Origin: Sipunculus nudus
Taxonomy: Eukaryota; Annelida; Sipuncula; Golfingiida; Sipunculidae
Direction: 5' to 3'
Assembly (NCBI GenBank): GCA_026874595.1
Contig: CM049307.1
Span: 96,880,330-96,944,329 of the forward strand
Length of the DNA stretch: 64,000 bases
The position numbers and the translations under genes are program-made. The stretch's first letter is position 1, and each line of letters opens with the position of its first letter. Positions 9,007-51,100 of this stretch are shown piece after piece. A model generated the notes under the pieces. That model ran no database searches, was not told the origin of the DNA, and saw nothing but the letters and a program-made list of their open reading frames with translations.

Positions 9007-9158
9007 GTTGGCCAACGATTACGAAAACCACAGTCAAGAAGGTCTAAAAGACGTGAGCAAGTTCTTCCAGAACCCCATCAACGGTTATCTGATAATAAAA
9101 CGACTCACTGCAGACCTCAAGAAACTGAAGAAAGTCCTAACGTCGACGATAGCAGACG
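9007..9158 (+). CDS. P4HA: P4HA gene 1 exon E1: N-terminal dimerisation segment
   Basis: Acceptor ccacag and donor gtacgt. The exon opens with the last base of a split codon and ends with one base of the next. It encodes a lysine-rich helical stretch containing FFQNPINGYLIIKRL, which aligns with GHPVNAFKLMKRL of vertebrate P4HA. Because it starts in mid-codon it cannot be the first coding exon. No upstream partner was recognised. Confidence 0.88.
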
Positions 9159-12100
9159 GTACGTCATATATCAGTGAAAATGTATGTAACATTCATAATA
9201 CTGAAATTTTATGGATAAATGTTTTTAGAAACCTGAATCTATAACTAAACATTTGTAACATTTATGCAATATGTTTATATTTAGTTTTATTACAGAAATG
9301 ACTATTGGTAGTACTAAGTGCTAATAAAAGATCTCTAGATCTCGACAAAATTGATAATCCTGCTCATTTCACTGCTGCCATCATATGTCACAAATATAAA
9401 GAAATCTACATAATTTCATTTTCATTTGGTACTATTCTTCAATCATTTTCCCCAGAATTCAACAAAGCATGGAACCGGAAGTCGGATTTCCTTCCGGACG
9501 AGAAGGACCTGCAAGGGGCGGGCATGGCGTTACTAAGGTTACAAGACACATACGCCCTTTCAACCCAAGAGATCGTCCATGGGAAGATATCTGGGGTTAC
9601 GGAGTCCATAATGTTATCAAGTAGGTATATGTTATCATAAATTAAGTAAATCTGTAGAGTCCATAATGTTATCGAGTAAGTACATGTTATTATATGTTAA
9701 GTAAATCTGGAGAATCAATAATGTTATTGAGTAAGTTTATGTTAATATAAGTTAAGTAAATCTGTAGAGTCCGTAATGTTATCGAGTAAGTACATGTTAT
9801 TATAAGTTAAGTAAAACTGTAGAGTCCATAATGTTATCGAGTAAGTACATTTTATTATAAGTTGAGTAAATCTGTAGAGACCGTAATGTTATCGAGTAGG
9901 TACATGTTATTATAAGTTAAGTAAATCTGTAGAGTCCATAATGCTATCGAGTAAGTGCCTGTTATTATAAGTTAAGTAAATATGTATAGTCCATAATGTT
10001 ATCGAGTGAGTAGATGTTATTTTAAGTTAAGTAAAACTGTAGAGTCCATAATGTTATCGAGTTAGGACATGTTATATTAAGTAAGTAAATCTGTAGAGTC
10101 CATAATGTTATCGAGTAAGTGCATGTTATTATAAGTTAAGTAAATATGTATAATCCATAATATTTTCGAGTAAGTACATGTTATTATAAGTTTGTTAAAT
10201 CTGTAGAGTCCATAATGTTATCGAGTAAGGACATGTAATATTAAGTAAGTAAATCTGTAGAGTCCATAATGTTATCGAGTAAGGACATGTAATATTAAGT
10301 AAGTAAATCTGTAGAGTCCATAATGTTATCGAGTGAGTACAGGTTATATCAAGTTTGTAAATTTGTACCTTTTATCGAAGGGAACTGCAAGGAAAGTTTG
10401 ACTCTAAGCATGACATGTTATCGAGGCTTCTGGGCTTGGTTCACATGCGTGAACAGACATGCGTGAACTAAATCTGTTAATTTAGTTTCGTAAGAAACTA
10501 ATGAATTCCTTTTGGATAAGAATGGCAACACCAGTAACTCGACAAATTTCATAGATTATCATATCTCAAAGCCCTCTGGATCCCAGTTTCTTTATCCTGG
10601 GCTGAGAATAATCTAAATTGCAATTTTCTCCAAGGATTTTTTTTTTCGTATTTCTACTTTATTTGAGGATTTGGGCATGTAAAAAAAGTTAAGGTAGTTG
10701 TCCATAAGTGCGTAGTCCTGAATAGTCCGCGTGCGTAGTCCTGTGTAGTCCGCGTGCGTAGTCCTGTGTAGTCCGCGTGCATAGTCCTGTGTAGTCCGCG
10801 TGCGTAGTCCTGTGTAGTCCGCGTGCGTAGTCCTGTGTAGTCCGCGTGCGTAGTCCTGTGTAGTCCGCGTGCGTAGTCCTGTGTAGTCCGCGTGCGTAGT
10901 CCAGTGTAGTCCGCGTGCGTAGTCCTGTGTAGTCCGCGTGCGTAGTCCTGTGTAGTCCGCGTGCGTAGTCCTGTGTAGTCCGCGTGCGTAGTCCTGTGTA
11001 GTCCGCGTGCGTAGTCCTGTGTAGTCCGCGTGCGTAGCCCTTTTGCGTACCCCGTATCCTCAAACTCGTCAAATTTCGTTATCAATAAGTGCCTATGGGT
11101 GGCCCTCACTCAATCTTGATAGATAACTCAAGAATTTCTAATTGCAAGCCATTTTACTTCGTTATTGCTATCGAATTTATTTTAAAATATATTAACAACA
11201 AAACAAATTATCAATAACTGAAAAAAATCATCTATAATATTTTAGGCAGTAAACTGATATTTACGCTTTAAACATTAAAAAAAAACCAATGTGTATAGTA
11301 GAAAAGGACAACGAATTCAACCAAATACAAATTTTTAGGTTTCTGAAAGATGTCAGATATGCTGTATTTATTCCAATAGAAAATAGAGAATCATCATACA
11401 ACACGCCTGAAAAGGAAAACTGCTTGCTAAAATTTGAAATTAACAATTTGAAGGTGACTAGTATGCTTAGTGCGCAAAAAGATGTTAATATTTGTCAATT
11501 TTTTAGCTGACGACAGTTACCATCTCGGTAAGATCGCGTACATCAAACAGGATTTCCATCAATGTGTTATGTGGATGCAACAGGCCCTGGACACGCTGAA
11601 CACCGGCTCAAATGAATTGAAAAACAAGGCAGATATCTTGGATTATTTATCATTTGCAACTTTCAAGGTAGGTATTTTATATTACGTAATCTTGAATAAA
11701 GTTTATCAATATGATAGTTGGATGGATTTTCTTTCTTTTGACCCTTGCAAAATGAGAATTTCACCAAATAAATTGGTATCACTTACAAAGTGCAATGAAA
11801 ATTTCAATGACAGTACTAATTCCTACAAAGATTACCATTTTACATGGTAAAACAGTGTAAGTACGATATTTTACATACATTTTGTTGATTAGGGGGACAG
11901 TTGCTTGGATCACCTCAACCCGCTGTCAACATAAATGTACATATAGGAGTTTATTTTATTAAATAAAACGGTAATGACAAAAGTTCCAACATAACCTGTA
12001 TTTTTAACAAAGAGATTGTATGTTGAAAATGTGATTGTGTTATGCATTATGATAGGACCGTCGAACTGACCATTAACGGTAGTTTTGTGAAACACAAGTT

Positions 12101-12806
12101 TATAGCACTATTGCATTACTTAGTTACTTCCTGGGTTCCAGAGTAGTTTATTTAAGAGAACCGCTTGAATTTCTAACTCACAGTGATTACAGACTTGTTC
12201 TTTATTAAAAGGGAAATTATGTTAGGAAAAATAAAAATTATATTATTATTATATATGCATATAAGAATATTTATAGACAAAAAATAATCTTGATGAGCTT
12301 TTGATATCTACTTGGTTTGGAAAGAAAATGCTCGTCATATTGAAGCCCAATGTTTTACCAACAGGTCACGTGATATTCTTACCAGATATTTCGATATACA
12401 TACTCAAATTTTATAAAAAAAAGTATTTTATATACATTAAAAGCCTTCCCTAAACCAACCAATCAGCAAATTTCTCTCTCTCGTACCGTGACAAAAATTC
12501 GCAAGGTTAAACAAACGATCATCGAAATTGATCAATAATTACCATTTTATTGATAAATTTGGGGATTCTTTAAAAAAGTAATTTACAATGAAAGAAAGAC
12601 ACATAGGCCTTTTCACTTTAGAATAAAACAAAAACCATACTTTACCCATTCATTTTAGACATGTAATAAGTCAGTATATGAGGAAGCAGTATATTTTGAC
12701 ATTTTAACCCAACTGATGATGGTCAAAGTCAAGGTCCCATGCACAAATAATAATTTTTAAAGCTGCTTGATTGGTTGGGTAGTGCCATAAATATTTGGTA
12801 AATCAC

Positions 12807-12859
<53 letters not shown>

Positions 12860-15800
12860 AATATATAGGTAATATAAAGTATAAATACTGGTTCTTTTCA
12901 TTGGATGTTTCATGTCATATCAGGGGATAACTTCCTTATTCACTTTGCGTCAAACTGTGTGACAAGTTTGAGACAATAATCATTACATTTTTATACACGG
13001 GTGCATACCTGATCCAATTATGGAACAGACCGGAATACCTGTGCCTGGGAGGGGCTCGACGTTGTCTAGTAGTCAAGGCGTTGGACTTGACATTATGGTG
13101 AATTATCGCTAGAACTTCTGAGATTCGCTCTAATGTCTAAACGTCAGGATATGGCTTCTAGTGTATTCCAAACCCCATTGTTATAAAACCTTAAATCTGC
13201 TAGGATTAATTAAAACATATCATTCATATCGCATGGATACCGTAATTTCATACAACAGACAGTGCCATCAAAAAGCCACGGACCTGTCAATAAAAAGATA
13301 CAGGTAAAAAAGGGATTAGTGCTGCTGAAAGGAGTACATGCATGTTTTCTCCTTACTTCCTTGGTCGCTGTCAGGACGTACAACTTAAGGGCAGCGATAA
13401 TAATCAAATAATAAACATGAGAATTACCTTACTGATAATGTATAATAACATCTGTTCCCGTTACGTAATTATACGTCCACGTAATACCATCATGTAAGCG
13501 TGGGAGGATCTCTATGTCACTGAGTCAGACGTTTGCTCGGCTGAATAGCACTGGGTAACATCGTGTATACAAAGGCTCATTCGACTCACGACTACAGACC
13601 GGTACCACCTATAATGACAAAGAACTGGAAGTAATACATAACGTTGTATAATAAAAGTAATACTTAACTCTGTTCAATTTAAACTAAATAAGGAATAAAT
13701 GTATAAACATATACATCTTGGTATATAAAACGTTTATGCAATGACGTCAAAAGCGGGGGAGTGGAATTCTAACCGTTCCATAGTGCCGCCTTTTGAATAA
13801 AACACTAATTGAAGGTCTGTATTTTTTTAAATTATGTTCCTCGGATTTCGTATTATATTAAATTGTCTGGCTCTCTGAGCCTTCGGTCTTTGCAATGATT
13901 TTTTTTATTCCTGAATAAAACATATGCGATGAAAACAGTCCATATCTGTGCCTTTCTCTACAGCTAGGTAATGTCCGCCAGTCTATATTTAAGACTTTCT
14001 TTAAAGCTAGGTAATGTCCGTCAGTCTATCTATGTCTTTCTCTAAAGCTAGGTAATGTCCGTAAGTCTATTTATGTCTTTCTCTACAGCTAGGTAATGTC
14101 CGTAAGTCTATTTATGTCTTTCTCTACAGCTAGGTAATGTCAGCCAGTCTATATTTAAGTCTTTCCCTACAGCTAGGTAATGTCCGCCATTCTATCTATG
14201 CCTTTTCCTACAGCTAGGTAATGTCCGACAGACTATATCTATGTCTTTATCTACAGCTAGGTAATGTCCGCCATTCTATCTATGCCTTTCCCTACATTTA
14301 GGTATTGTACGCCAGTCTGTATCTATGCCTTTCCCTACAGCTAGGTAATGTCTGCCAGTCTATATGTATGTCTTTCTCTACAGCTAGGTAATGTACGCCA
14401 TTCTATCTATGCCTTTCCCTACATTTAGGTATTGTACGCCAGTCTGTATCTATGCCTTTTCCTACAGCTAGGTAATGTCCGCCATTCTATCTATGTCTTT
14501 CTCTACAGCTAGGTAATGTCCGACAGACTATATCTATGTCTTTCTCTACAGCTAGGTAATGTACGCCATTCTATCTATGCCTTTCCCTACATTTAGGTAT
14601 TGTACGCCAGTCTGTATCTATGCCTTTCCCTACAGCTAGGTAATGTCTGCCAGTCTATATGTATGTCTTTCTCTACAGCTAGGTAATGTACGCCATTCTA
14701 TCTATGCCTTTCCCTACATTTAGGTATTGTACGCCAGTCTGTATCTATGCCTTTTCCTACAGCTAGGTAATGTCCGCCATTCTATCTATGTCTTTCTCTA
14801 CAGCTAGGTAATGTCCGACAGACTATATCTATGTCTTTCTCTACAGCTAGGTAATGTCCGCCATTCTATCTATGCCTTTCTCTACAGCTAGGTAATGTCC
14901 GACAGACTATATCTATGTCTTTATCTACAGCTAGGTAATGTCTGCCAGTCTATATGTATGTCTTTCTCTACAGCTAGGTAATTTTCGCCATTCTATCTAT
15001 GCCTTTCTCTACAGCTAGGTAATGTCCGACAGACTATATCTATGTCTTTATCTACAGCTAGGTAATGTTCGACAGACTATATCTATGTCTTTCTCTACAG
15101 CTAGGTAATGTACGCCATTCTATCTATGCCTTTCCCTACATTTAGGTATTGTACGCCAGTCTGTATCTATGCCTTTTCCTACAGCTAGGTAATGTCCGCC
15201 ATTCTATCCATGTCTTTCTCTACAGCTAGGTAATGTCCGACAGACTATATCTATGTCTTTCTCTACAGCTAGGTAATGTACGCCATTCTATCTATGCCTT
15301 TCCCTACATTTAGGTATTGTACGCCAGTCTGTATCTATGCCTTTCCCTACAGCTAGGTAATGTCCGCCATTCTATCTATGTCTTTCTCTACAGCTAGGTA
15401 ATGTCCGACAGACTATATCTATGTCTTTCTCTACAGCTAGGTAATGTCCGCCATTCTATCTATGCCTTTCTCTACAGCTAGGTAATGTCCGACAGACTAT
15501 ATCTATGTCTTTATCTACAGCTAGGTAATGTCTGCCAGTCTATATGTATGTCTTTCTCTACAGCTAGGTAATGTCCGCCATTCTATCTATGCCTTTCTCT
15601 ACAGCTAGGTAATGTCCGACAGACTATATCTATGTCTTTATCTACAGCTAGGTAATGTTCGACAGACTATATCTATGTCTTTCTCTACAGCTAGGTAATG
15701 TACGCCATTCTATCTATGCCTTTCCCTACATTTAGGTATTGTACGCCAGTCTGTATCTATGCCTTTTCCTACAGCTAGGTAATGTCCGCCATTCTATCCA

Positions 15801-18800
15801 TGTCTTTCTCTACAGCTAGGTAATGTCCGACAGACTATATCTATGTCTTTCTCTACAGCTAGGTAATGTCCGCCATTCTATCTATGCCTTTTCCTACAGC
15901 TAGGTAATGTCCGACAGACTATATCTATGTCTTTCTCCACAGCTAGGTAATGTCCGCCATTCTATCCATGTCTTTCTCTACAGCTAGGTAATGTCCGCCA
16001 TTCTATCTATGCCTTTTCCTACATTTAGGTATTGTATGCCAGTCTGTATCTATGCCTTTCCCTACAGCTAGGTAATGTCTGCCAGTCTATATGTATGTCT
16101 TTCTCTACAGCTAGGTAATGTACGCCGGGCCTTGAATCTCACCAATGAATGGTTGAAAATAGGTACGTTGTTCATTACGTAATGTTTATTGTCCTTAATA
16201 AATGTTCAGTTTGTGAACAAAAATATACTTTGATCAGGTTCTACATATGCATATGCATGTGTGCCCATACTTTAAACGTCGTGTTAATTAAAAAATAAAA
16301 ACTGTCACATTTTACTTCCTGTTGAATGTCATACACTCAATATATAACCAGCCGTATTTGGAGAAAAAGAAATCCTCTCTGAAATGATGTAAGCAATTAT
16401 TGGATTATGCACATAGCATATCAGTATTTATTTATCCAGCATTTTAAAATCAAATGTTTCGCATAAAGCATGATAACAGTATGTTCCATAGTTCTGTGTA
16501 TTCTCCTGTTTTCCTTTCTTTTTTAATACTGTATTAATCTAATTAATATAATAAGGCTTTCAATATTTCCTAATTTTACGAATCACAGTTATTGAATATA
16601 TAATTGTTATGGCATATACTATGTAGATGAATTCAAATTTATCGACTTTATTTGTTGTACATTGAATCTTCGTATCGTATGTATAATATTTTTAGTATTT
16701 TCGTTCATAATTACAGAAAATAACTGTCGTCTCTGTTCAATAATGTAAGTCTGTTTTTACCGTTTTTAGAACCAAACCATGCCCGCGCCATTGCAAACGC
16801 GAAAAATTATTACGACATGTTGGGAAAGGAAATCCTGCAAAGGCAACTTCCGCCAACTCCCACGCCGGGTGAGAGCCCGGATGAACAGTATTCTACATCC
16901 AAATTATATGCAGATTATGCCAAACTGTGTCGGGGAGAGGACACACACGTGAGTGCATCATCTATCATTTTTTTTAAATATTGATCCTTTCTACTGTAAT
17001 GACATAAGCAATGCTGTTTTTATTGATACTTGTAATGTTATTAAGTACATGGTTTTTGCAGGCCTGCCATCTACGATACTATATTGTTACTAAACTGGAT
17101 TTAAACAAATAATTGGTCTATGGTGTGTTACTCTTTATTGTAACAAAGTGTGCGGCAAAATATGTCAACAAGGGATGATAAAAAGTATGGAACAGACAAT
17201 TTTATCACCAGGTTGTCTCAGAGAGAGAGAAAGAGAGACAGAGAGACAAAGAGAGATGGAGGGAGGGAGAGAGGGAGGGAGAGAGAATGAGAGAGACGGA
17301 TACTGAGTTGACAAAAGTTCCATTCCCATATAGCAAATTAGCTTTACAACTCCTTTTCGTCACGTGGCATAGCTCTTATCTGCCCTGGTCACGTGACGGA
17401 TATTAAATCAAAGGTACATCAGTTAAGAGATTAAGATTACAGAGCAACCATTTTTGTGTGCAATAAAAACTGATACTGAAGATTCCAAATTAAATTTTGA
17501 CTGAAGTAACTTATTGATACAGAAAACGTCCATACATATATTTAAATTCTATAAAAAAAATTAACATGTTGTTGCAGGTGTATAAATATGCACATAAATT
17601 AAAATGTCGTCTCCGCCAAGATCATCCGATCTTCAAAATCCGTCCGCTTAGAGAGGAGACGTTGTACCTACGGCCACACATCCGGGTTTATCATGACGTC
17701 ATCAGTGCGGGCGAAATAGCCAAAGTCCAAGAACTTTCAATGCCGCTGGTGAGTCTGAAATGTTTACCTTTATTTCATTTAGTATAGTTAATGTCTACTA
17801 TAATTTCATTTATTTTCCAGTATTTAGACAATCATATCTTATATTTTCCTTTATTTCTCCCCTGTAAAATCGTCTTACTTACATAACTGTTATTACTGAA
17901 CAATTATTGTTATTTAGACCCGTTATTAGTGAACACGTTCAGATTTTTATGTATACTTGTAAGAGTACGTGGTGTATAGTTATACATGAACATCCTTCTA
18001 AACCAATTTAATATACCTGTAAATGTTGCTTGGAGAACTGATGGTCCTGGAAAGTAACCAAGTAAAATACAATTGTGCAGTAAAAACTCTAATTATACGC
18101 CTGTCTATGACGGGACGTATTATGTTATACCCACCTTCCTTCCTTTCGATCATCCGTTAACTTTTAGTGTCGCCACGATAACTTACCGGGGCTTTGATGG
18201 GTTTTCACGAAACTCACCATAATAACTTACCAATAGATTTTTTCGCCAGAGTTCAATTATAATAAAACTCAAGAAAAATTTTAATCAATAAAATATCTCG
18301 CCTAATGTTAAATTTCCAGCAAAATCGACGCATACTTAATGTAGTCAGAGGTCACCGCACTTTTGGGGCACCGTGGTTAGTTACCAAAAATCCTATGGAT
18401 TTTCAGGAAACTCATCAATCATGTTTACCAATAGAGTTTCTCGTCTCAATTAAATTCCCAGGGAATTCACGTATATTTAATGAGTTTATAAATGTCCCCA
18501 GGCTGTTTGGTACAGGCCAATTCGTGGCGGTCAGCGGAAACACAATGGCATGAACACATCTGTCTCGTGTTTGACAGACATGCCATGCTTTAGTACCCTA
18601 AGTCTATGCCATAAGGAAAAGAACAATCATGAACATATATAGTGGAAAATAGTTTTGACCTTCTTAGTGGGTTTGCGTCCTCAGAATGTTAACTGCACAA
18701 GGAGCATGGAGCATTAAGTTAAGCAGTCTCTGGATAATGTGCTGAGATATTTAACGGTCTCGTTCTGGAATCCCTCTCTGGGCTCTGATGTATATTAAAT

Positions 18801-21800: not shown

Positions 21801-24800
21801 TATTCCACTGTTTGTCCTATGTATAGATTCATCATGTCATCTTATTTATCTTCATGAAAAACAAACAAATGATCATCCCGTAATATTTTCTTTCTAATCT
21901 CAAACATATCCTTGTGAACCGCCGATGACCTAAATCATATTTTTTTACAAATTGAAAATGACACTAACCATGGGTCTACAGTTAATTTATTAATGCATTT
22001 ATTGTAAAGCTGCGACAAAATTTCTTCATTTGGATTTTCATGCCATCCTTTATTTTTGTTACAATGAACTTAGCTCCTTGTGTTTCTAATGTGTATGTAA
22101 CATTATCTTGGTTATCATTATAATAATATAGAATTGTTAATTATTTATTTTTTTTTGGTAAAAATCATTAGTTAGAATGCATATATATCATTTATATTCA
22201 AAATGTATGTCCCCAAATCACCAGCCGGTGTTGCACCGCGCCCTAATGTAAAATATTCCCAATGGAACCAAAACCACAAATTGTGAATTTCGGTGCATTA
22301 GCACTAGAGAATCCTGTTAGTGTACAATACACAGGAAGCGGGTATGGGATGGGATGTATGTTTATATACATGCTCTGTGAACCGGAACTTGGCACGGCTG
22401 ATCCAGGGTCCACTGCGCATTGGGGAACAAGTCTAATTTATTGTGGTCCACTGTCATCCCAAATAATCTACTGCAGCGTGCACAAGAAAGTTTAAATTCT
22501 CCTTGTTATTAAGCTCATTGCCCTTCTTACTTTATGTTCTTATGTAATCGTTTATTTAAACTGGCAGTCACGTGACCATGAGTTTCATCGCGTAACCATG
22601 CATGAATGTCACCTGCTGAAATATAAGTCTCAAAGACTAGAGGTTTCGCTCTAAGCACACCTGTTAACTGTTGAGAAATTAGATCAACGCTTAAACTATA
22701 TAGAAACAGTGTGTACTCAATTGGTTCGTTTTTTCGCGTGCTTGTTTTCCTTAAAGTCACTGTGCATTTCCGTTCTCATTTTATTCAGGTCATGCTGCGC
22801 GTAGATAGAAAAAATAATATTGTTTAAATATCTTATATTCCTATTATATTCGACTTTGAATTTGTTGTGATACAGTATTTTTAAAGTAAGGTCCAGCATG
22901 TTGTATTGATTCCAGAATAGGGCTTTAAATTGGACTTTCTTACAATGTGATAACATTTCAAAGGCATTCACAGAAAAAGAAAAGTACTGCCCTATTTTTT
23001 AGAGTTCTTTCGTATGTGATATTCCAAGTATTAAACAAATTAGAATAAATTCTTGTTGAAAGATTTTAAAGACTTTTCTGTTACTATTCACTTAAATTTA
23101 ATGCATTCTTTACAAACTGGATCACTTGTAAAGCATTCCGTATTGTGACTGTAAATATAAGTGTTCTGCGCCTACCTGCGCTCAGTTACTGTTGCTTGCT
23201 GACGTGTCTGCCATGTTGACTCCCCTTGTAGCGCGTGGCTAGAGGACGACATAGATCCACTTATTCGGCGAATCAGCGTCAAGACCGGGGCGCTGTCAGG
23301 TTTAAGTCTACAGACAGTCGAACTGATGCAGGTACGGTGAGCAGACGACAATACTATATATAAATTTAAAATTACCTTTTGCGCTACCATAAATAACCTT
23401 TCCCACCATAACTAAAATATTGCCGTAATGATTCGCACATGCTATAATGTGAAGGGTCTGTATCAATAGGAATGAATGAAATGTTTGTAGCAATATTCTA
23501 AATCAAGGAATTATGTTGAATAAGGTGGATTATCTCTGTAAAATAGGGGATAAGGCAGGTGCGCTTTCTCAGTCCCCGCAGTTGGCCTATTTGATAATCC
23601 GAGACAGTATATATCACACACTTATATATGATCTATACTGACTGACAGCGGTGGTGAGAATGATAAAAAAACATTTAAGATTTGATCTAGGAACATTTCT
23701 TTCAACAGATCCAGAGATTGGGGTGGGGTTGGAGTTCAAACACCCTTTTCAGTCACCACAACCTTTTATAAAGGGTTTCAAACCCTCTTTCCGAATACCT
23801 TTTTTATGTTTTCATATTAGTATTCCTCCGTTTCTCAAATCCTGGATCCGCCCCTGAGAGTTTTTAGCTCAAAATACAGACTATAATATAAATAATTTTA
23901 CTGATATTTTTCTCTAACTCTCTTCAGGTGCTGAATTATGGGATTGGTGGACACTATGAGCCGCACTGTGATTTTGCAAAGGTAAGTAACTGATTAAAGT
24001 ACCACTGTACTAATGAAATTCGGTAATAGAGGTTGACATGGGTATTGAAAAATAGATTTTTGTGTTTGTAAATGATTACGTTTGACTACTACATGATACA
24101 AGACCACATTCCTAGGATGATCCTTATTTGTTTGTATAGGCCCGTGATATTGAAGCCCTCATTGGGCTAATGTATATGTGAAAACAATAGTGTTATTTAG
24201 CGTATAAAATTAGTGATTGGTGTTCATATGAGCAAGTTGATGAATTTGTATTATTAGAAGATTAATTTAAAATATCCATCTTATACAAATAGTCTCTTTA
24301 TTCTCATAAACCCACCGGCTCGTAATTGCCCTAGCATAGATGTTACAAGTCTAATTAATTTTAGATTTCTGCCACAATCTCACACTCTTTATATTTAGAT
24401 TACAGGTTGACTCTCGCCTAGTTTTCTTTCTTGTAATTTTCCAGTAATTTTTTACAATTACTTCGGATAGGGGTAGTCAGAAATCGATTTCAGCTTTCCG
24501 GTTTCAAACTACTTCTTTAAAACAGTTGTTTCTTTATGTTTATTTATTTTAAATTTATTTAAGTCATTTCTTGTTGATTTCGTAAATAAAATATTTGTAT
24601 ATTTTAATTTGGTATGTAATGTGACATACGAGCCTGTCTAAGTGTATGGGTCAATATAAGTATAATTAACAATATAATAAATATTTTGCGACAATTGTAT
24701 TTTTGTATCCGCCAAAACTAAGTTTTGCGGATGCTATGTTTTTGACCGGGTTCCGCCGCCGCCGCCGCTACCGTATTCGTTTCCGGAGAACTCCCTGAGA

Positions 24801-27800
24801 CTACTGGACCGATTTTCCCGAAACTTTGCGACAATTATCGTGTCACATGTGAACTGGTGCCTAACCAATTGGCGTTGACCTTTGACCTTTCCTCTCTCCA
24901 GTGCATCCATCTGAGCGTCTGTTTTGACACATTACCCCACATAACTTCGGACTCGCTTGACCAATCAGGGAAAAAATTGTACAAATGTAGCCCTTGGATA
25001 GCTTTATAACAACACACAAAAAAAAAAAAATGGTGGCGCCACCTGCAACCATTTTTGCACAGCGTCCATCTGTTCATCTGCCTTGGGTTAAAATCAATCA
25101 TATCTCTGCCGTGGTTTGACTAATTCACCTGAAATTCGGCATGCGTATACATCCTGGATAGCTTTCTTGATTTTATGACAGGTGGCGCAACCTACATTCA
25201 CGTTCACGCTGCAGACATCCATGCTTATATCTCCGGACAGGTTTGACGTATCTTCCTGAAATTTGCATGTTAAGATCTCACATAGCTCTTTATCATATAA
25301 AAAGCTGGTGGTGCCACCTGCGACCATTTTTGCATAGCGTTCCTCTGTTAGTTTGAATTGGGTTAAAATCACTCATATCTCGGCAGTGGTTTGACTAATA
25401 CACCTGAAATTTGGCATGCTTATACATCCTAGATAGCTTTCTTGATTTTATGACAGGTGGCACCACCTGCATTCACGTTCATGCTGCAGATATCCATGCT
25501 ATTATCTCCAGACTGGTTTGACCTATCTTCCTGAAGTTTTGCATGTGTTTGGATCTCACATAGCTCTTTATCATACACAAAACTGGTGGCGCCACCTGCA
25601 ACAATTTCTGCACAGCGCCCATCTGTTTGTCTGCTGTGGGATAAAATCACTCATATTTCGGCAGTGGTTTGACTTTTCCACCTGAAATTTTGCATGTGTA
25701 TACATCTTGGATAGTTTCTCGTTCAAATTACAGGTGGCGCCACCTACAATCATGTTAACGTGGCAGACATCCATGCTAATATGTAACGCATCTAACTCTA
25801 TTACCCCTTGCCACTCAATCCATGCCTCACTTCACCCGTCCTACTCTGATTTTGGCGGATACACGTAGTCGCAAGGCGACTACCCGTATCCTTGTTTCAT
25901 AGATTGATTCCATCTTTAAAATCGAATCTTTCACGTGGTTTATTGAAATAATATATCATGATTTAAAAATATAACAACTTCCCATTTATTTAAATCATCG
26001 AGGTAATAATATGAACAGTGTAGGGGTTACCTGGAATTAGGTTCACACTACCCCCGGGGGTAATCGATTTCAGTTTATGGGGGAGTGGGGGCACCTGCAA
26101 GTCTTTACATTTGAGTTTGCGTGTCGCATAGGTGTCTTAGCTGCTTCTGTTTGTATAAGGTCTACTGAAACTCCAGGTACACTTATATTTATATGTGGGA
26201 GGGTGGCCCATCCCCCACCCCCCCTTTCAAAGGCCCTGTAGCCACCCGTCCTGGAAGCCACCTTCCTATAGCTTATGTCGGCAGTCATTATCAAATGTTT
26301 TATGTTATCAATGAATCTACAAATGGCAAACGAAAAACGGTTTGTTATTATAGCATTGATATTTAATAGAAAAAATGGCAAGTCCCGTGGTACAAATTTA
26401 TCTTTTTTTCTACTTGTTTTTTAACATATCCATTGTGTTAAGAAAATGTCTGTGTTATATTTCAGGAGATGGAGAGGGGAGTATTTGATGATATAGTTGG
26501 AAACAGAATAGCTACAGTTCTCTGTTATGTAAGTATTACGTAAAAAAACCCAGGATTTATAAAACTATTGATATTTTTTCCTTAATATTCCTGCGTTTGT
26601 TGGCATCATGCATTTCGTTCTATACTAATTTGGTAATTGTTTTGAAATACATTTTTCTCCTGATGTCCCTTAATATATCTTTAAATAGCGCTATCTATTT
26701 CTTCCGGACATCTGTCAATGTGCGGTCCATGCGTTTCTTCGTACATTTGTTTTATAATATATAAATTTTTGTTACATATATTTGTAGCTGTACATACTGT
26801 GTAAACGGCTTTAATATATTTCTGGCCATTCGTCATTCGGGCTTTCGATATACTGATACTTTTACTCACACACTTTAATTGTAAGTTTTCCGCCATTGAA
26901 AAAAAAACTAAAATGTCTTTCTCCCTATTCAGTGTTATGCCGGGGTTTGTGATTAACTCCTTTTTCTCCTTCCTTAACTTTCTCTGTTGCGTACTTCCAT
27001 TTATTATTCATGTGGCATATTTGAGTCTTTTTTAAGTAATAATTTCGAGACGTGTATGGAACGTTTCAACATTTATCCTTGCATTATTTTCCAGTTCATT
27101 CTCCGGTTAGTTGTCACTTTATTCCTTTATTATATTTCATATTGTGTGGCCTAGATATTTTATGTCTCTCAAATCATTTAATCTCGCTCTCAAGCATTTC
27201 TTCAAATGGATTATAGTTTCAATAAAACATTTATTTATGCTGTTACCTCCTTTAATACATCAAAAACATATATCTCTTTCATTCTAAAGATGTAATATTT
27301 TCCATTGTCATGGGCTGCCTTCGGGCCAGCTTCCAGGTTTTTTTTGTCCACGACCGTTGACCTCTCTTTGATTGATTATTATTTCTCACACTCTTTCTTG
27401 TGGTACAGTGCAGTGCGTGCAGTAATCATGTGTATAATAATATATCATCGGTGTTCTGACATGGCGGATAGTGGGACTATAAAGACGCTTTTATTGAGAT
27501 ATAATGCCATTTTTACCTTCAGGTATGAACTACCAGGTACTGTAGGAATGAAATTCAATTTATATCCCGATATGAAGGAGGCCTTTTGTACAGCGCATTC
27601 CGTTTGGTCATTAAAAGATGTAGATATAATGATTCATGTCACTGGCATGACGTAAGAGGAGTACTCTTTTTGTAATTGTTTTGGTAGAGTCGTTAGGAAC
27701 CAGTGACCATTCAAAGCATTGACACATTGATTCGAATTTAGCAAGGCCTAGGTACCAGAGTCAGCCTCTGGTACTGACACGGACACGGCCTGGGACACTC

Positions 27801-30398
27801 AGTGTCAGCCTCTGGTACTGACAAGGGCACGGCCTGGGGCACTCAGTGTCAGCCTCTGGTACTGACAAGGGCACGGCCTGGGGCACTCATTGTCAGCCTC
27901 TGGTACTGACACGGGCACGGCCTGGGGCACTCAGTGTCAGCCTCTGGTACTGACACGGGCACGGCCTGGGGCACTCAGTGTCAGCCTCTGATACTGACAC
28001 GGGCACGGCCTGGGGCACTCATTGTCAGCCTTTGGTACGGGCACGGCCTGGGGCACTCAGTGTCAGCCTCTGGTACTGACAAGGGCACGGCCTGGGGCTC
28101 ATTGTCAGCCTCTGGTACTGACACGGGCACGGCCTGGGGCACTCAGTGTCAGCCTTTGGTACGGGCACGGCCTGGGGCACTCAGTGCCAGCCTCTGGTAC
28201 TGACAAGGGCACGGCCTGGGGCACTCAGTGTCAGCCTCTGGTACTGACAAGGGCACGGCCTGGGGCACTCAGTGTCAGCCTCTGGTACTGACAAGGGCAC
28301 GGCCTGGGGCACTCATTGTCAGCCTCTGGTACTGACACGGGCACGGCCTGGGGCACTCAGTGTCAGCCTTTGGTACGGGCACGGCCTGGGGCACTCAGTG
28401 CCAGCCTTTGGTTCTGACACAGGCACGGCCTAGGGCACTCAGTGTCAGCCTCTGGTACTGGCACGGCCTGGGGCACTCAGTGTCAGCCTCTGGTTCTGAC
28501 ACAGGCACGGCCTAGGGCACTCATTTCAGCCTCTGATACAGACACGGGCACGGCCTGGGGCACTCAGTGTCAGCCTTTGGTACTGACACGGGCACGGCCT
28601 GGGACACTCAGTGTCAGCCTCTGGTACTGACACGGCCACGGCCTGGGGCACTCAGTGTCAGCCTTTGGTACTGACACGGCCACGGCCTGGGGCACTCAGT
28701 GTTAGCCTCTGTCAGACTCAATAAAGGCTCCTTTCTCTGACATCATACCTGTCAACATGCTTAACTGGTTTTGTCCATCGGCCAAAGCTATCTGCTGAGA
28801 AAATGAGCATAAATATTAGCTCAAAACATAGTGATAATTCCTGCATGATAAACTCGGTTTATAAATGTTGTTCTGAAGATTAAGCTTAGTTCACCTGATG
28901 TATTACTGCAATTTTCTGACATGGTGAAGATCTATAAAATGCATATTTAACCTTTATATTTATTTTAATTTTTTCTTGTATATTTAAATTTAACTTTAAA
29001 CATTAGATTTTTTAAGGTTTTATATAGTTTGTAAAATCAACATAATGTATTTCAGATGACAGACGTCAAATCCGGCGGATCGACGGTGTTTCCGCATCTC
29101 GGGGTGAAAGTAAAACCGATAAGAGTAAGTGATTACATGTCAGTTTATGGGGAAATGGGATAGTTAATCTTGAAATGCCTGATGATTGGCGTAAAGCAGG
29201 CAAAATTCACGTAGTTGCGTATGTTTAAGAAATAAATATTATAATATATGTGGTGACCAGGGATCGATTTAGCGATTGATACCGAAAATAGAGCCAGATT
29301 TCGAATCATTAAGCTTCCAATACAACTCCAGATTGCCGCAGTACAGCTTATATATAAAAAAAAATTTCTGTACTCTGTGGGATTTGGTACCCGTCCCAAT
29401 AATCCCCCCTCTGTACACCCCACCCTTGCCCATTTCTAAAATCCTGACACCGTCCTTGATGACAATCTCAAATTGACTTGCATGTCATCGCTGTAAGTGA
29501 ATTATAAAGGGAATAAACGGAGATAAATGTGTTTTTTATGCAGTCGGGATTCTGCTGACTGGTAAACAGATGAAAATATGTTTTCGATAGAGCAGATACA
29601 CTTCTCATCTGAGACAGACCTTTGAAGCACGCATGAACACCTGATTTATATAGCTCACCCGGTTATTTGATTTTCTTTGCTTCAGGGTTCGTGTGCGTTT
29701 TGGTACAATTTGAAGGAAAATGGCGTCGGAGACGAGGACACGTTACACGCCGCGTGTCCTGTCCTGGCTGGGACAAAATGGGGTTCGTTTTCTTTCAGAT
29801 ATTAACCTCCAAATCATATATTGTGTTATTTTTTTTTTTTTTATTTTAAAGACAATATTGCAATATAGGGTCAGGTAAAGTGACCATTTTATCCAAAATT
29901 AATTCTAGACTGTTCACGGTGACCGTTCTGGAATGCTAATAAATGTGAACTTATAATTTCCTATAGGTTCATAGCGAAAGAAATTCCATCAAATCAGTTT
30001 GTGGCAAGCGATATGGTTATCCAATCAGCGTTCTGTCTCTCCTCTCTGGGTCAGTTGTAATCCGCCCTGTCACAGTATCCATTCCTATTTGAATGAAAAA
30101 TTTAAACTACATTAATCCTACCACTTTAAACTTCAGTACTTTACATTGAAAATTGGCAATTTAAATAAATTTGCCTTTATTTTCAAAGGCATGCATTTTT
30201 TGTTTTATTTATTATTTTTAAATATTTGATTATATTCTGTATTCATATATATATGTTATTAGACTTCCATTTCAGAATCAACTAATTTTGGATTTTTAAT
30301 ATCAAGTGGCCTCTGTTTGTTTTACAGTGTGCAACAAATGGTTCCACGAACGAGGGCAGGAGTTCCTTAGACCATGCGGCCTTAATCCAGATCATTGA
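9007..30398 (+). CDS. P4HA: Collagen prolyl 4-hydroxylase alpha subunit, gene 1 (5' incomplete)
   Basis: Catalytic alpha subunit of the ER-lumen collagen prolyl 4-hydroxylase, which in animals assembles with protein disulfide isomerase and uses Fe(II), 2-oxoglutarate, O2 and ascorbate to hydroxylate prolines in X-Pro-Gly repeats. Twelve exons (about 444 codons) join with consistent phase: 9007-9158, 9456-9620, 11507-11667, 16111-16162, 16770-16948, 17578-17748, 23232-23331, 23928-23981, 26466-26528, 29056-29124, 29686-29782, 30328-30398. Order is N-terminal dimerisation segment, TPR-like peptide-binding domain, then the double-stranded beta-helix dioxygenase. Iron ligands are His and Asp in HYEPHCDF and His in LHAACPV; the 2-oxoglutarate-binding Lys follows the second His by ten residues (TKW). 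The C-terminus is FHERGQEFLRPC. The signal peptide exon and one small exon of length 3n+2 between 17748 and 23232 were not found. The reading frame is otherwise intact, so the gene looks functional. Confidence 0.94.
9456..9620 (+). CDS. P4HA: P4HA gene 1 exon E2
   Basis: Acceptor ttttccccag and donor gtaggt. It joins E1 in phase to give EFNKAWNRK and encodes FLPDEKDLQGAGMALLRLQD, matching the family FPNDEDQVGAAKALLRLQDTY block just before the peptide-binding domain. The last bases TCCATAATGTTATCAA and the donor are the source unit of the tandem array that follows. Reading through the donor meets a stop at 9638-9640. Confidence 0.93.
9602..10365 (+). repeat. 55-bp minisatellite built from the E2 3' end and its splice donor
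   Basis: About fourteen copies, counting the real junction, start near 9609, 9663, 9718, 9773, 9828, 9883, 9938, 9993, 10048, 10100, 10155, 10210, 10263 and 10318. Each repeats GAGTCCATAATGTTATCGA followed by GTAAGTACATGTTATTATAA and an AGTAAATCTGTA linker. The first 18 bases correspond to coding sequence at the end of E2, the rest to the start of the intron. Most copies hold GTAAGT, GTGAGT or GTAAGG at the donor position, several closer to donor consensus than the real gtaggt. One copy (10048) has GTTAGG. Confidence 0.97.
10705..11038 (-). repeat. 23-bp minisatellite in intron E2-E3
   Basis: About fourteen head-to-tail copies of the unit GTGCGTAGTCC plus TGTGTAGTCCGC, itself made of two related half units. 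The unit has no stop codon in two minus-strand frames and is not a multiple of three, so both frames give the same cyclic peptide and open frames of 151 and 127 codons. There is no start context, splice logic or homology for a protein, and the array lies inside an intron of a plus-strand gene. Confidence 0.95.
11507..11667 (+). CDS. P4HA: P4HA gene 1 exon E3: first half of peptide-substrate-binding domain
   Basis: Acceptor atttttttag region ends at 11506; donor gtaggt. Joining to E2 restores a Thr codon, giving MLSTDDSYHLGKIAY. The exon encodes the first TPR-like helices: YHLGKIAYIKQDF, then CVMWMQQALDTL, then DILDYLSFATFK. It aligns with the family sequence FELGKVAYTEADYYHTELWM, the aromatic groove that binds proline-rich peptide. 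It is the only exon whose upstream and downstream introns both contain junction-derived arrays. Its length of 161 bp means skipping would shift the frame. Confidence 0.95.
12809..12856. repeat. (AT)n microsatellite
   Basis: About 24 AT dinucleotides in intron E3-E4. Confidence 0.95.
13945..16126 (+). repeat. 41-43-bp minisatellite built from the E4 splice acceptor and E4 5' end
   Basis: Roughly fifty copies run directly into the real E4 acceptor. A typical unit is CTAGGTAATGTCCGCCA, then TTCTATCTATG, then a pyrimidine tract and CTACAG. The bases TTTCTCTACAG plus CTAGGTAATGTACGCC are identical to the true acceptor and the first 16 bases of E4. Variant units carry ACATTTAG followed by GTATTGTACGCC. 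Multi-unit blocks recur (for example near 14520, 15070, 15240 and 15660), showing higher-order duplication. Each unit thus has a pyrimidine tract, an AG acceptor and, four bases on, a GTAATG donor-like site. Confidence 0.97.
16111..16162 (+). CDS. P4HA: P4HA gene 1 exon E4 (52 bp)
   Basis: Acceptor tttctctacag and donor gtacgt. It continues E3 in phase 0 as FK-LGNVRRALNLTNEWLKI, the second TPR-like helix pair (family YQQGDLDKALLLTKKLLEL). The acceptor at 16110 is chosen because the next AG, four bases on, would give a stop after six codons. Use of any upstream array acceptor would give a stop (TAG at the following CTAG) within about fifteen codons. Confidence 0.93.
16770..16948 (+). CDS. P4HA: P4HA gene 1 exon E5: end of peptide-binding domain and linker
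   Basis: Acceptor cgtttttag and donor gtgagt. The split codon with E4 gives Glu, then PNHARAIANAKNYYDML, matching the family DPEHQRANGNLKYFEYIM. A variable linker (PPTPTPGESPDEQY) follows, then YADYAKLCRGE, the conserved cysteine block (family YEMLCRGE) leading into the catalytic domain. It ends in phase 0. Confidence 0.95.
17222..17300 (+). repeat. GA/GGGA-rich simple repeat
   Basis: Purine-rich imperfect (GA)n tract with GGGA interruptions in intron E5-E6. Confidence 0.9.
17578..17748 (+). CDS. P4HA: P4HA gene 1 exon E6: start of catalytic region
   Basis: Acceptor atgttgttgcag and donor gtgagt; 57 codons, phase 0 at both ends. It encodes LKCRLRQDHPIFKIRPLREE, then TLYLRPHIRVYHDVISAGEI and AKVQELSMPL. 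It aligns with the family LFCRYHDGNRNPKF and RFHDIISDAEIEIVKDLA blocks. The next family segment (roughly 20-25 residues, RATV-type) should follow in another exon, which was not located. Confidence 0.94.
20575..21060 (-). pseudogene. LINE retrotransposon relic (C-terminal end of reverse transcriptase ORF)
   Basis: On the minus strand the translation reads KLHKFGITDNSKCRLCNLE then, after a frameshift, IFNCDIVKRFWQDV and later IILGKP and FIHGKAYIYKTKESF. The Cys-rich block followed by a F-N-C-x-x-V-x-x-F-W motif and a terminal basic helix is the C-terminal tail of CR1/L2-type non-LTR reverse transcriptases, as I recall that family. The frameshift near 20860 shows it is decayed. It sits antisense in the E6-E7 intron of gene 1. 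Upstream RT motifs were not recognised. Confidence 0.75.
23232..23331 (+). CDS. P4HA: P4HA gene 1 exon E7
   Basis: Acceptor ctccccttgtag and donor gtacgg. It is 100 bp, opening with the third base of a split codon, and encodes AWLEDDIDPLIRRISVKTGA then LSGLSLQTVELMQ. It aligns with the family AWLSGYENPVVSRINMRIQD and STAEELQ segment. Length and phase are the same as the duplicated exon pair of gene 2. No second copy was seen within gene 1. Confidence 0.95.
23705..23857 (+). mobile_element. G-run MITE family, copy 2 (degenerate)
   Basis: The right end CCTGGATCCGCCCCTGA is inverted relative to the left end of copy 3 (CCAGCGGATCCAGGTGGGG). Internal sequence matches copy 3: CACCACAACCTTTTATAAAG here against CACTACAACCTTTCTTAGAG there, both followed by a TTTCAAAC or CTTCAAAC segment. 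It lies about 70 bp upstream of exon E8. Confidence 0.6.
23928..23981 (+). CDS. P4HA: P4HA gene 1 exon E8: first two iron ligands
   Basis: Acceptor ctctcttcag and donor gtaagt; 18 codons encoding VLNYGIGGHYEPHCDFAK. The His and Asp of the HxD iron-binding motif are in PHCD (family PHFD). It has the same size and phase as the gene 2 exon at 55480-55533. Confidence 0.97.
24705..25890 (+). mobile_element. R1: about 1.19-kb non-autonomous element with hairpin ends and GGTGGCGCCACC boxes
   Basis: The left end begins GTATCCGCCAAAACT and folds back on AGTTTTGCGGAT. The right end has TTTTGGCGGATAC, inverted relative to the left end, followed by a hairpin with arms GTAGTCGC and GCGACTAC, closed by GGATAC and GTATCC. 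Inside, the palindrome GGTGGCGCCACC or close variants occurs near 25031, 25181, 25308, 25455, 25584 and 25733, at alternating spacings of about 128 and 149 bp. The element has no credible protein: the antisense open frames are translations of this repeated unit. It lies in intron E8-E9 of gene 1. An inverted copy is at 50244-51434. Confidence 0.85.
26466..26528 (+). CDS. P4HA: P4HA gene 1 exon E9
   Basis: Acceptor atatttcag and donor gtaagt; 21 codons encoding EMERGVFDDIVGNRIATVLC and a final Tyr. It matches the family GNRIATWLFYMSD strand, with Cys in place of the usual Phe before Tyr. Same size and phase as the gene 2 exon at 54886-54948. Confidence 0.95.
27761..28711 (+). repeat. 44-bp GC-rich minisatellite in intron E9-E10
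   Basis: About 21 copies of a unit reading CAGTGTCAGCCTCTGGTACT then GACACGGGCACGGCCTGGGG and CACT. Some units are about 6 bp shorter (GGTACGGGCACGG). The array is distinctly more GC-rich than its surroundings. Plus-strand open frames of 62-89 codons here are repeat translations and are not conserved coding sequence. Confidence 0.96.
29056..29124 (+). CDS. P4HA: P4HA gene 1 exon E10
   Basis: Acceptor gtatttcag and donor gtaagt; 23 codons encoding MTDVKSGGSTVFPHLGVKVK then PIR. This is the family MSDVSAGGATVFPEVGASVWP block of the dioxygenase core, with SGGST in place of AGGAT. Same size and phase as the gene 2 exon at 53281-53349. Confidence 0.96.
29686..29782 (+). CDS. P4HA: P4HA gene 1 exon E11: third iron ligand and 2-oxoglutarate lysine
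   Basis: Acceptor tttgcttcag; donor gttcgt, a weak non-consensus GT site forced by phase. It encodes GSCAFWYNLKENGVGDEDTL then HAACPVLAGTKW. The His of HAACPV is the third iron ligand, and the Lys ten residues later binds 2-oxoglutarate. It ends with one base of a split Val codon. Same 97-bp length as the gene 2 exon at 52809-52905. Confidence 0.95.
30328..30398 (+). CDS. P4HA: P4HA gene 1 exon E12: C-terminus and stop
   Basis: Acceptor tgttttacag. The split codon with E11 gives Val, then CNKWFHERGQEFLRPCGLNP and DH, then TGA at 30396-30398. It matches the invariant family C-terminus SNKWLHERGQEFRRPC. No KDEL is present, as expected, because P4HA is retained in the ER through PDI. Confidence 0.97.
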
Positions 30399-48171: not shown

Positions 48172-51100
48172 CTGTAAACAGAGATAATATTAGTTACACT
48201 CATGGCTTACAGATGTCACTGCCTGTAAAAGTGATGGATGAAGCCTCATGCATGACCAATAACTGATGATTCATATCCTGTATGACAGTATTTTAACTTG
48301 AAGAATTCATAGTATAATACTCATAATAATAACTAGTGGCCCATGGGCCACGACGCTCAGCTGAATTCAAGGAATGTTGAACAATGAGTAAAATGACTGC
48401 CAGAGTGCAGACAAATCATAAATATTTTTTTAAGAGTCCTAAGAAAAGGGTTTCAGTGGGCTTTTGGACAGATGACAACTTCATTTGAAGGTCTCATAAA
48501 TAGAAAGAAAAATGCGTAAAAATTTGAAAAAATACAGGTAGTGCCACCAGTCTGCAGGAACTGATGAAACACTCCATGATCAATATATATCCCAAGAATC
48601 ATAGCTATCAGGGCATTAGTTATTCAGATACTGGAGCTTTTTTTGTATCAAATTTTTAATTATTCTTAGGGGTATTTACGAGCCCTATAGCTCAGAGGAT
48701 ATGGGTAACAGAGACCTAATTTCAGATTTCCAAGAAGACTTTTCATGGACCTCCCTAGAAGTCAAGTATGAAGATTCTAGGTCAAGTGGATACGATTTGT
48801 GCACTGTTACAAGATAAAGCTTTATATGAAAGTCTCAAAAAGAGAAAAAAATTCGTAAAAATTAGAAAAAATACAGGTGGCGCCACCAGTCTGCAGGAAA
48901 TGATGAAACACTCCATGATCAATATGCATGCAAAAAATCATGGCCATCAGTACATTAGGTATTCGGATACTGCAGCTTTTGTATCACATTTTTAATTATT
49001 CTTACGGGTTCTTATGAGCCCCATAGCTCGGAGGATATGGGTAACAGAGACCTAATTTCATGTATCCACAGAGACTTTTTATGGACCTTCCTTGATGTCA
49101 AGTAAGAAGATTCCAGGTCTAGTGATTACGGTTTGTATCCTGTTAACAGATGAGGCTTTATTTGAAAGTCTCAAAAAGAGAAAAAATGCATACAAATTAA
49201 AAAATATATATATAGGTGGCGCCACCAGTCTGCAGGAACTGATGAAACACTCCATGATCAATATGCCTGCAAAAAATCATGGTGATCAATGCATTAGTTA
49301 TTCAGATATTGGAGCTTTTGTATCAAATTTTAATTATTGAGGGGTACTCACTACAAAGGATATGGGTAACATAGACCTAATTTCATGTTTTTCACAGAGA
49401 ATTTTTATTGACCTCCCTTGATGTAAAGTTAGAAGAATCCAGGTCCAGTGGTTATGATTTGTGCCCTGTTAACAGATAACAGCCCCTTTGAAAGTCTCAA
49501 AAAGAAAAAAATTTGTAAAAATTGGAAACAATACAGGTGGTGCCACCAGTTTGCAGGAACTGATTGAACATCCCATGACCAATATTCATGCAAAGAATCA
49601 TGGTGATCAATGCAATAGTTATTGAGATACTTGACCTTTTGTATCAAATTTTGCATTATTCTGGGGGGGGGGGGGGTACTCCGGAACCCATAGCTCAAAG
49701 GATATGGGTAACAGAGACCTAATTTCAGGTTTTCAAGGAGATTTTTCATGGACCTCCTTGGATATTAAGATTGAAGATTCCAGATCCAGTGGTTACGATG
49801 TGTGCCTTGTTAACAGATGACAGTTTCATTGCAGGTCTAAAAAAGAGAAAAAATTTCGTAAAAATTGAAAAAAAAATACAGGTGGCACCACCATTCTGCA
49901 GGAAGTGATGGAACATCCCATGATCAATATTCATGCAAAGAATCATGGTGACCAATGCAGTAGTTAATTTAGATACTCGAGCTTTTGTATCAAATTTTGC
50001 ATTATTCTGGGGGGGTACTTTGGAGCCCCATAGCTCAAAGGATATGGGTAACAAAGACCTAATTTCAGGTTTCCAAAGAGATTTTTCATGGACCTGCCTG
50101 GATGTCAAGTAAGAAGATTCCAGGTCTAGCGGTTACGATTTGTGCCCTGTTAATGGACGGATGGCCGGACGGACAATGGACAAAGAGTGATCGCTATAGC
50201 TCAGATGACTTTCAGTCAGCTGAGCTAATAATATTATAAACTAGAATACGGGTAGTCGACAAGTGACTACGTGTATCCACCTAAATCAGAGTGGAACGGG
50301 TGAAGTGAGGCATGGATTGAGTGGCAAGGGGAAATAGAGTGAAGTGTTGCATATTAGCATGGATGTCTGCAGCCAAATTGTATATGAAGGTTGCGCCACC
50401 TACCAAAAATCCAGAAAGCTGTCCAAGTTGAATACATATGCAAAATTTAAGGCAGATAAGTCAAACCACTACATGTATATGAGTGATTTTAGCCTGTGGC
50501 AGACAAACAGATGGACGCTGAGCAAAAATGGTTGCAGGTGGCGCCACCAGTTTTGCGTATGATAAAGAGCTATGTGAGAACTATACACATGCAAAACTTT
50601 GGCCCAATCGGTCAAACGGTTACTAAGATATGAGCTTGGATGTCTGCTGCATAAACTAGAATGCAGGTGGCGCCACCTGTCATAAAATCAAGAGAGCTGT
50701 CGGGGATGTATAAACCTGCAAAATTTTAGGCAGATATGTCAAACCACTGCCGAGATATGAGTGATTTTATCCCATGGCAGACAAACAGACGGGAGCTGTG
50801 CAAAAATGGCTGCAGGTGGCGCCACCAGTTTTGCGTATGATAAAGAGCTATGTGAGATCTAAACACATGCAAAATTTTGGCTGAATCGGTCAAACGGTTC
50901 CCAAGATATGAGCTTGGATGTCTGCAGCATAAACGTGAATGTAGGTGGCGCCACCTGTCATAAAATCAGAAAAGCTATCCAGGATGTATACACATGCCGA
51001 ATTTCAGGTGAATCAGTCAAACCACTGCAGAGATATGAGTGATTTTAACCCAAGGCAGAAGAACAGATGGACACTGAGCAAACATGGTTGTAGGTGGCGC

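Follow-up and report, generated by a model that had tools for sequence, protein, structure and literature searches.

In Sipunculus nudus, the intron preceding exon e4 of a gene that, judged from its encoded domains, is a prolyl 4-hydroxylase alpha (P4HA) gene (gene A, plus strand), coding for an enzyme that modifies collagen, ends in a minisatellite made of its own 3' splice junction. The 52 copies follow one another head to tail, most of them 41 or 43 nt in length, and the last one coincides with the start of the exon. We consider it to be quite probably a "mirage", i.e. a junction minisatellite, whose presence would be tolerated because the outermost copy is the one finally chosen for splicing. 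Positions below refer to the window, the whole stretch of 64,000 nucleotides that was analysed, and a slash within a motif marks the splice boundary. The array and its last unit are located as follows.

13943-16126, plus strand: acceptor-junction array, 52 copies of intron end plus (C)AG/CTAGGTAATGTNCGCC, eight of them variants with ACATTTAG/GTATTG
16084-16126, plus strand: last acceptor unit, with the putative working acceptor (AG at 16109-16110) and the first 16 nt of e4

To define the units, the array was cut at TAGGTA, which is unchanged in all 52 copies. The parse yields one partial first unit (13943-13979), 23 units of 41 nt and 28 of 43 nt, which fall into 25 distinct types in irregular order. 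Each unit combines the intron end and the acceptor with 16 bases that are equal or nearly equal to the start of e4. Tandem Repeats Finder recovers the same interval, 13943-16126, with a period of 84 (one 41-nt plus one 43-nt unit; score 2876) and, in a second call, 13935-16121 with a period of 295 (score 3125). The first-pass annotation had described about fifty copies of the e4 acceptor and the first 16 coding bases beginning at 13945; the unit parse supports this description, the last copy being the exon junction, and moves the start to 13943 and the count to 52.

The splice signals are retained throughout the array. An AG stands immediately 5' of CTAGGTAAT in 44 of the 52 units (41 with CAG..GTAATGT, two with AAG and one with CAG..GTAATTT), the remaining eight read ACATTTAG/GTATTG, and AG and GT are directly juxtaposed in every unit. 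The CTAG/GTAATG layout, described earlier for every standard unit, holds for 43 of the 52. Two units, at 14357-14399 and 14652-14694, are letter-for-letter the same as the last one, and this identity spans 76 nt. When the whole genome (1.43 Gb, 153 contigs) was searched with a unit dimer, the array in gene A was the sole matching place, with counts that are lower bounds since the search skips very common words. An Rfam scan of 11000-17500 returned no RNA family.

The exons of the host gene that bear on this interpretation are listed below.

9008-9159, plus strand: exon e1, N-terminal P4Ha_N region (PF08336), acceptor CCACAG, donor G/GTACGT
9456-9620, plus strand: exon e2 (PF08336), its final 19 nt forming the first copy of the donor array; the true donor, A/GTAGGT, is at 9621
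11507-11667, plus strand: exon e3 (DDSYHLGKIAY...DYLSFATFK), from alignment to the P4HA1/2 structures and PF23558, donor AAG/GTAGGT
16111-16162, plus strand: exon e4, 52 nt, phase 0 at its start and phase 1 at its end, donor TAG/GTACGT
16770-16948, plus strand: exon e5 (EPNHARAIANAKNYYDMLGKE...CRGEDTH), from alignment and a Pfam match
23925-23975 and 29680-29790: catalytic exons (HxD; H..K), read further downstream

The joined protein of gene A matches P4Ha_N (PF08336) with 82.1 bits and the peptide-substrate-binding TPR domain (PF23558) with 96.5 bits, and its catalytic domain, joined from pieces, reaches 24.9 bits, just under the Pfam cut-off of 27 bits. Neither the coding frame nor the P4HA domains are interrupted between e1 and e5. 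Exon e4 encodes LGNVRRALNLTNEWLKI, and across the 11667/16111 junction the protein aligns with the peptide-substrate-binding domains of human P4HA2 (FQLGDLHRAL vs FKLGNVRRAL) and human P4HA1. Frame and homology therefore point to the last acceptor, 16110/16111, as the working site.

Other members of the family were seen in the same genome. Gene B is a neighbouring P4HA paralogue on the minus strand. In a P4HA gene at C2:7.88 Mb the exons are paired (e3/e3', e4/e4' and e5/e5'; L043 1447-1611, 2571-2731, 5530-5580 and 5803-5854; L039 1501-1701 and 2978-3037), an arrangement that suggests mutually exclusive exons or an interleaved duplication. A P4HA-like gene at G000:C7:70557463 (L021 1501-1899) has a 561-aa open frame in one exon and is perhaps an expressed retrocopy.

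The mirror image of the acceptor array, which was absent from the first-pass annotation, sits in the intron preceding e3.

9602-10367, plus strand: donor-junction array, 14 units of 54-55 nt, each made of the last 19 nt of e2, an A/GTAAGT donor and the intron start, Tandem Repeats Finder score 1110

Copy 1 of this array is the real end of e2. The e2-e3 frame closes only with its donor, and all 13 downstream donors run into a stop. By a manually entered scoring matrix that gives the consensus 12.6 bits, most of the extra donors score 7.2 bits vs 6.7 for the true one. Since they are equal or stronger, simple strength does not explain donor choice. Between the donor and acceptor arrays, no complementarity that could loop out e3 was found.

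The two arrays have in common two features of mirages. In both, the repeat unit straddles an exon-intron boundary, with the true junction as the copy at one end, and the splice signals are kept (AG at the acceptor position in 44 of 52 units and AGGT in 52 of 52; donor GT in 14 of 14). We suppose that repeated tandem duplication of the intron-exon junction before e4 built the acceptor minisatellite. Exon definition would then pick the outermost copy, as this copy alone is immediately followed by an entire exon whose donor, 52 nt further on, is fair (TAG/GTACGT, 7.7 bits), and most other copies would present a weak GTAATG 4 nt after the acceptor and no definable exon. Splicing to a wrong acceptor would lead to a premature stop and to loss by nonsense-mediated decay; the array may thus cost expression and would leave the protein unchanged. 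A similar tolerance may apply to the donor array at e2. Exon definition seems to be the simplest account of last-acceptor choice, and the array is most likely neutral or mildly costly.

The consequences of alternative choices can be read from the frame. Use of any of the 51 upstream acceptors, with the rest of the array retained, gives a stop after 12-16 codons. The first-pass annotation had predicted a TAG in the following unit; a stop does arise in 51 of 51 cases unless further splicing intervenes, although it is TAG or TAA. Insertion of 4-nt CTAG micro-exons before the true exon likewise ends in a stop each time (1-4 inserts tested). Full protein is obtained only when splicing goes straight to the last acceptor or proceeds by zero-length ratchet steps at CTAG/GTAATG. 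The frame is also kept when CTAG is spliced directly to e5, which removes 16 codons of a TPR domain helix, and a by-product of this kind, originating from any unit, is possible. Exons of a normal size would also result from units 49 and 51 (179 and 95 nt, respectively), and a certain amount of leakage is therefore to be expected. RNA accessibility as a cause of last-acceptor choice was not supported, because folding of the 52 acceptors does not set the last one apart (rank 18 of 52 for openness).

Leakage of a larger extent would turn the array into a rheostat. In this case a considerable share of the transcripts would be spliced into upstream units and lost via their stops, and array length would tune the P4HA level. 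All 51 upstream acceptors and all 13 extra donors indeed lead to stops, two units match the true one over at least 43 nt, and block duplications imply that array length changes; amphioxus mirages, however, are reported as not disturbing splicing, and we regard this reading as unlikely. It is more doubtful still that the paired arrays act together on expression, with splicing into units set by array length and the products mostly rescued by ratcheting or destroyed, thereby tuning the P4HA level.

Ratchet points of recursive splicing in long introns have AG/GT juxtaposed, and the first-pass annotation noted that the units resemble a site of this kind. In such a process the intron would be removed stepwise, each AG/GTAATG serving first as acceptor and then as donor up to the last unit. 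The juxtaposition in all 52 units is consistent with this reading, and zero-length steps would be invisible in the mRNA and are thus compatible with the frame. The regenerated donors, however, are not strong: TAG/GTAATG scores 5.7 bits and TAG/GTATTG, in the eight variant units, 2.8 bits, vs 6.7-9.9 bits for the real donors of gene A. Moreover, the CAG or AAG located 4 nt upstream in 44 units would likely cause a 4-nt CTAG insert, always with a stop before the true exon. At a unit spacing of about 42 nt, only about 37-39 nt separate a donor from the acceptor of the next unit, and usual animal introns are longer than this. The GGT AAT GTA at the start of e4 represents ordinary Gly-Asn-Val codons, of which the Gly-Asn pair is common to paralogues B, C and E. 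The same AG/GT motif is unchanged in the true, retained exon, which an efficient ratchet would remove. The ratchet reading was therefore not supported, GTAATG being a set of codons and a poor donor, and we consider recursive splicing here to be very improbable.

It is hardly credible that the copy number, or the entire array, was inflated during assembly, an error to which the exact 294-nt internal repeats might point, since 25 unit types in irregular order with graded divergence at the 5' end are unlike simple stutter and the gene contains a second, independent array built from a different unit.

The copy count of 52 does depend on the assembly, because the 294-nt repeats, which occur at lags of 295 and 590, are exact. 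As read from the assembled sequence, these repeats show that the acceptor array expanded several units at a time. Among the full units, divergence is greatest in unit 2 at the 5' end (mean identity 0.76 vs 0.82-0.89 for most), and the 3' end does not stand out in this way. Variable columns are fewer in the splice core of the unit than outside it, a comparison based on a small count and on units that are not independent. At the equivalent intron position, the acceptors of paralogues B and C are ordinary (GACAG/CAAGGAAATG and TGCAG/CAAGGGAATA), and neither paralogue has a junction array there. By this comparison, the acceptor array is a derived state that arose in gene A. The equivalent intron of gene B contains a minisatellite of another kind (64 nt x 24; L042 4118-5641), which is separated from the acceptor by about 300 nt and does not derive from a junction.

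A small junction duplication, likewise absent from the first-pass annotation, was found in gene B at the acceptor of the e3 equivalent, where the junction TTGTTGTAG/CTGATGACAGTT is preceded by a partial copy of itself at 78% identity and by traces of another, more decayed copy.

L042 (reverse complement), about 1075-1142 vs 1159-1239: gene B partial junction copy

This copy and the 14-copy donor array show, at the level of sequence, that junction duplication recurs in the gene A/B pair. Among the P4HA-family exons tested, only three such duplications were detected, namely the two gene A arrays and the gene B partial copy, with the paired exons of the C2:7.88 Mb gene set apart. Two of the four gene A minisatellites end 1-40 nt inside an exon, for which random placement gives a probability of about 0.004 for at least two, a post hoc value derived from no more than four arrays and an approximate list of exons.

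Further minisatellites in gene A introns, at 10708-11041 (23 nt x 14.5) and 27756-28711 (44 nt x 22), touch no known junction. Elsewhere in the window, three arrays with long units (275-340 nt), at 25024-25782, 48468-50153 and 50351-51118, have in common a palindrome-like motif, GGTGGCGCCACC. With regard to the remainder of the genome, an FMRFamide precursor is encoded that contains about 20 FMRFG(K/R) units and SPFLRFGR, a type of gene that is known from molluscs and is not known from cephalochordates; on this ground an amphioxus origin of the sequence was rejected. The hemocyanin model PF14830 had no match, a result that says nothing on the phylum. Small contigs C61-C138 (G000, PF00005 search) bear intron-free, bacterial-looking ABC-transporter frames, and the assembly therefore apparently includes symbionts or contaminants.

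Gene A constitutes a natural experiment in splice site choice, as 52 near-identical acceptors, at least two of which are the same as the true one over 76 nt, occur together with 14 equivalent donors two exons earlier. Because local sequence cannot explain site choice, the contributions of exon definition, distance and decay could be separated by RNA sequencing. That this one gene pair contains three junction duplications raises the further question of whether tandem duplication is preferentially seeded at splice junctions in this genome.

Structures of this kind are already known; it is the copy number and the pairing of donor and acceptor arrays that are unusual. Junction minisatellites have so far been reported from amphioxus and, on the donor side, from one human gene. 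In amphioxus, tandem repeats over intron-exon boundaries were named "mirages" and occur in the Adh3, globin, TnC (troponin C) and PGBD5 genes (PMC3087553, PMC3902484). They are minisatellite-like, affect 5' or 3' boundaries, contain AG or GT in their units and end in a copy that is the real junction; among the affected globins BflGb6 and BflGb9, the BflGb6 mirage has 3-6 copies of 150-160 bp units (PMC3087553, PMC3902484). These reports give 10-72 bp for the Adh3 units, and the RT-PCR and Adh3 data presented there suggest that regular splicing is undisturbed by mirages (PMC3087553, PMC3902484). The first-pass annotation knew of no described junction-derived array of this size; as a kind, junction-spanning minisatellites are described in these reports (PMC3087553, PMC3902484).

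The gene A arrays resemble the amphioxus mirages in that the unit lies over an exon-intron boundary, carries splice signals and ends in a real copy. They differ in scale, with 52 copies of about 42 nt compared with the few, longer units of BflGb6, and in the presence of donor and acceptor arrays in two successive introns. Within the literature searched, the papers that cite the original mirage report concern amphioxus only. The reported hosts thus belong to Cephalochordata, and the genome of gene A lies outside that group.

A related event is known from potato, in which a new intron of RdRp originated from a tandem duplication across an intron-exon boundary, in line with the model of Rogers 1989 (PMC4974935). 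As in gene A, an intron end and an exon start were duplicated, and the exonic piece could supply a donor, as GTAATG could in the acceptor units. The potato gene, however, underwent one duplication and gained one new intron, whereas gene A has dozens of copies and no sign of new intron use. On the donor side, a minisatellite in human IFI6 (6-16), attributed to Turri et al. 1995, reportedly gives multiple splice donor sites. The donor array of gene A at 9602-10367 is similar in that it repeats a splice site and thereby presents many equivalent sites; the human array is restricted to the donor side, whereas gene A has both.
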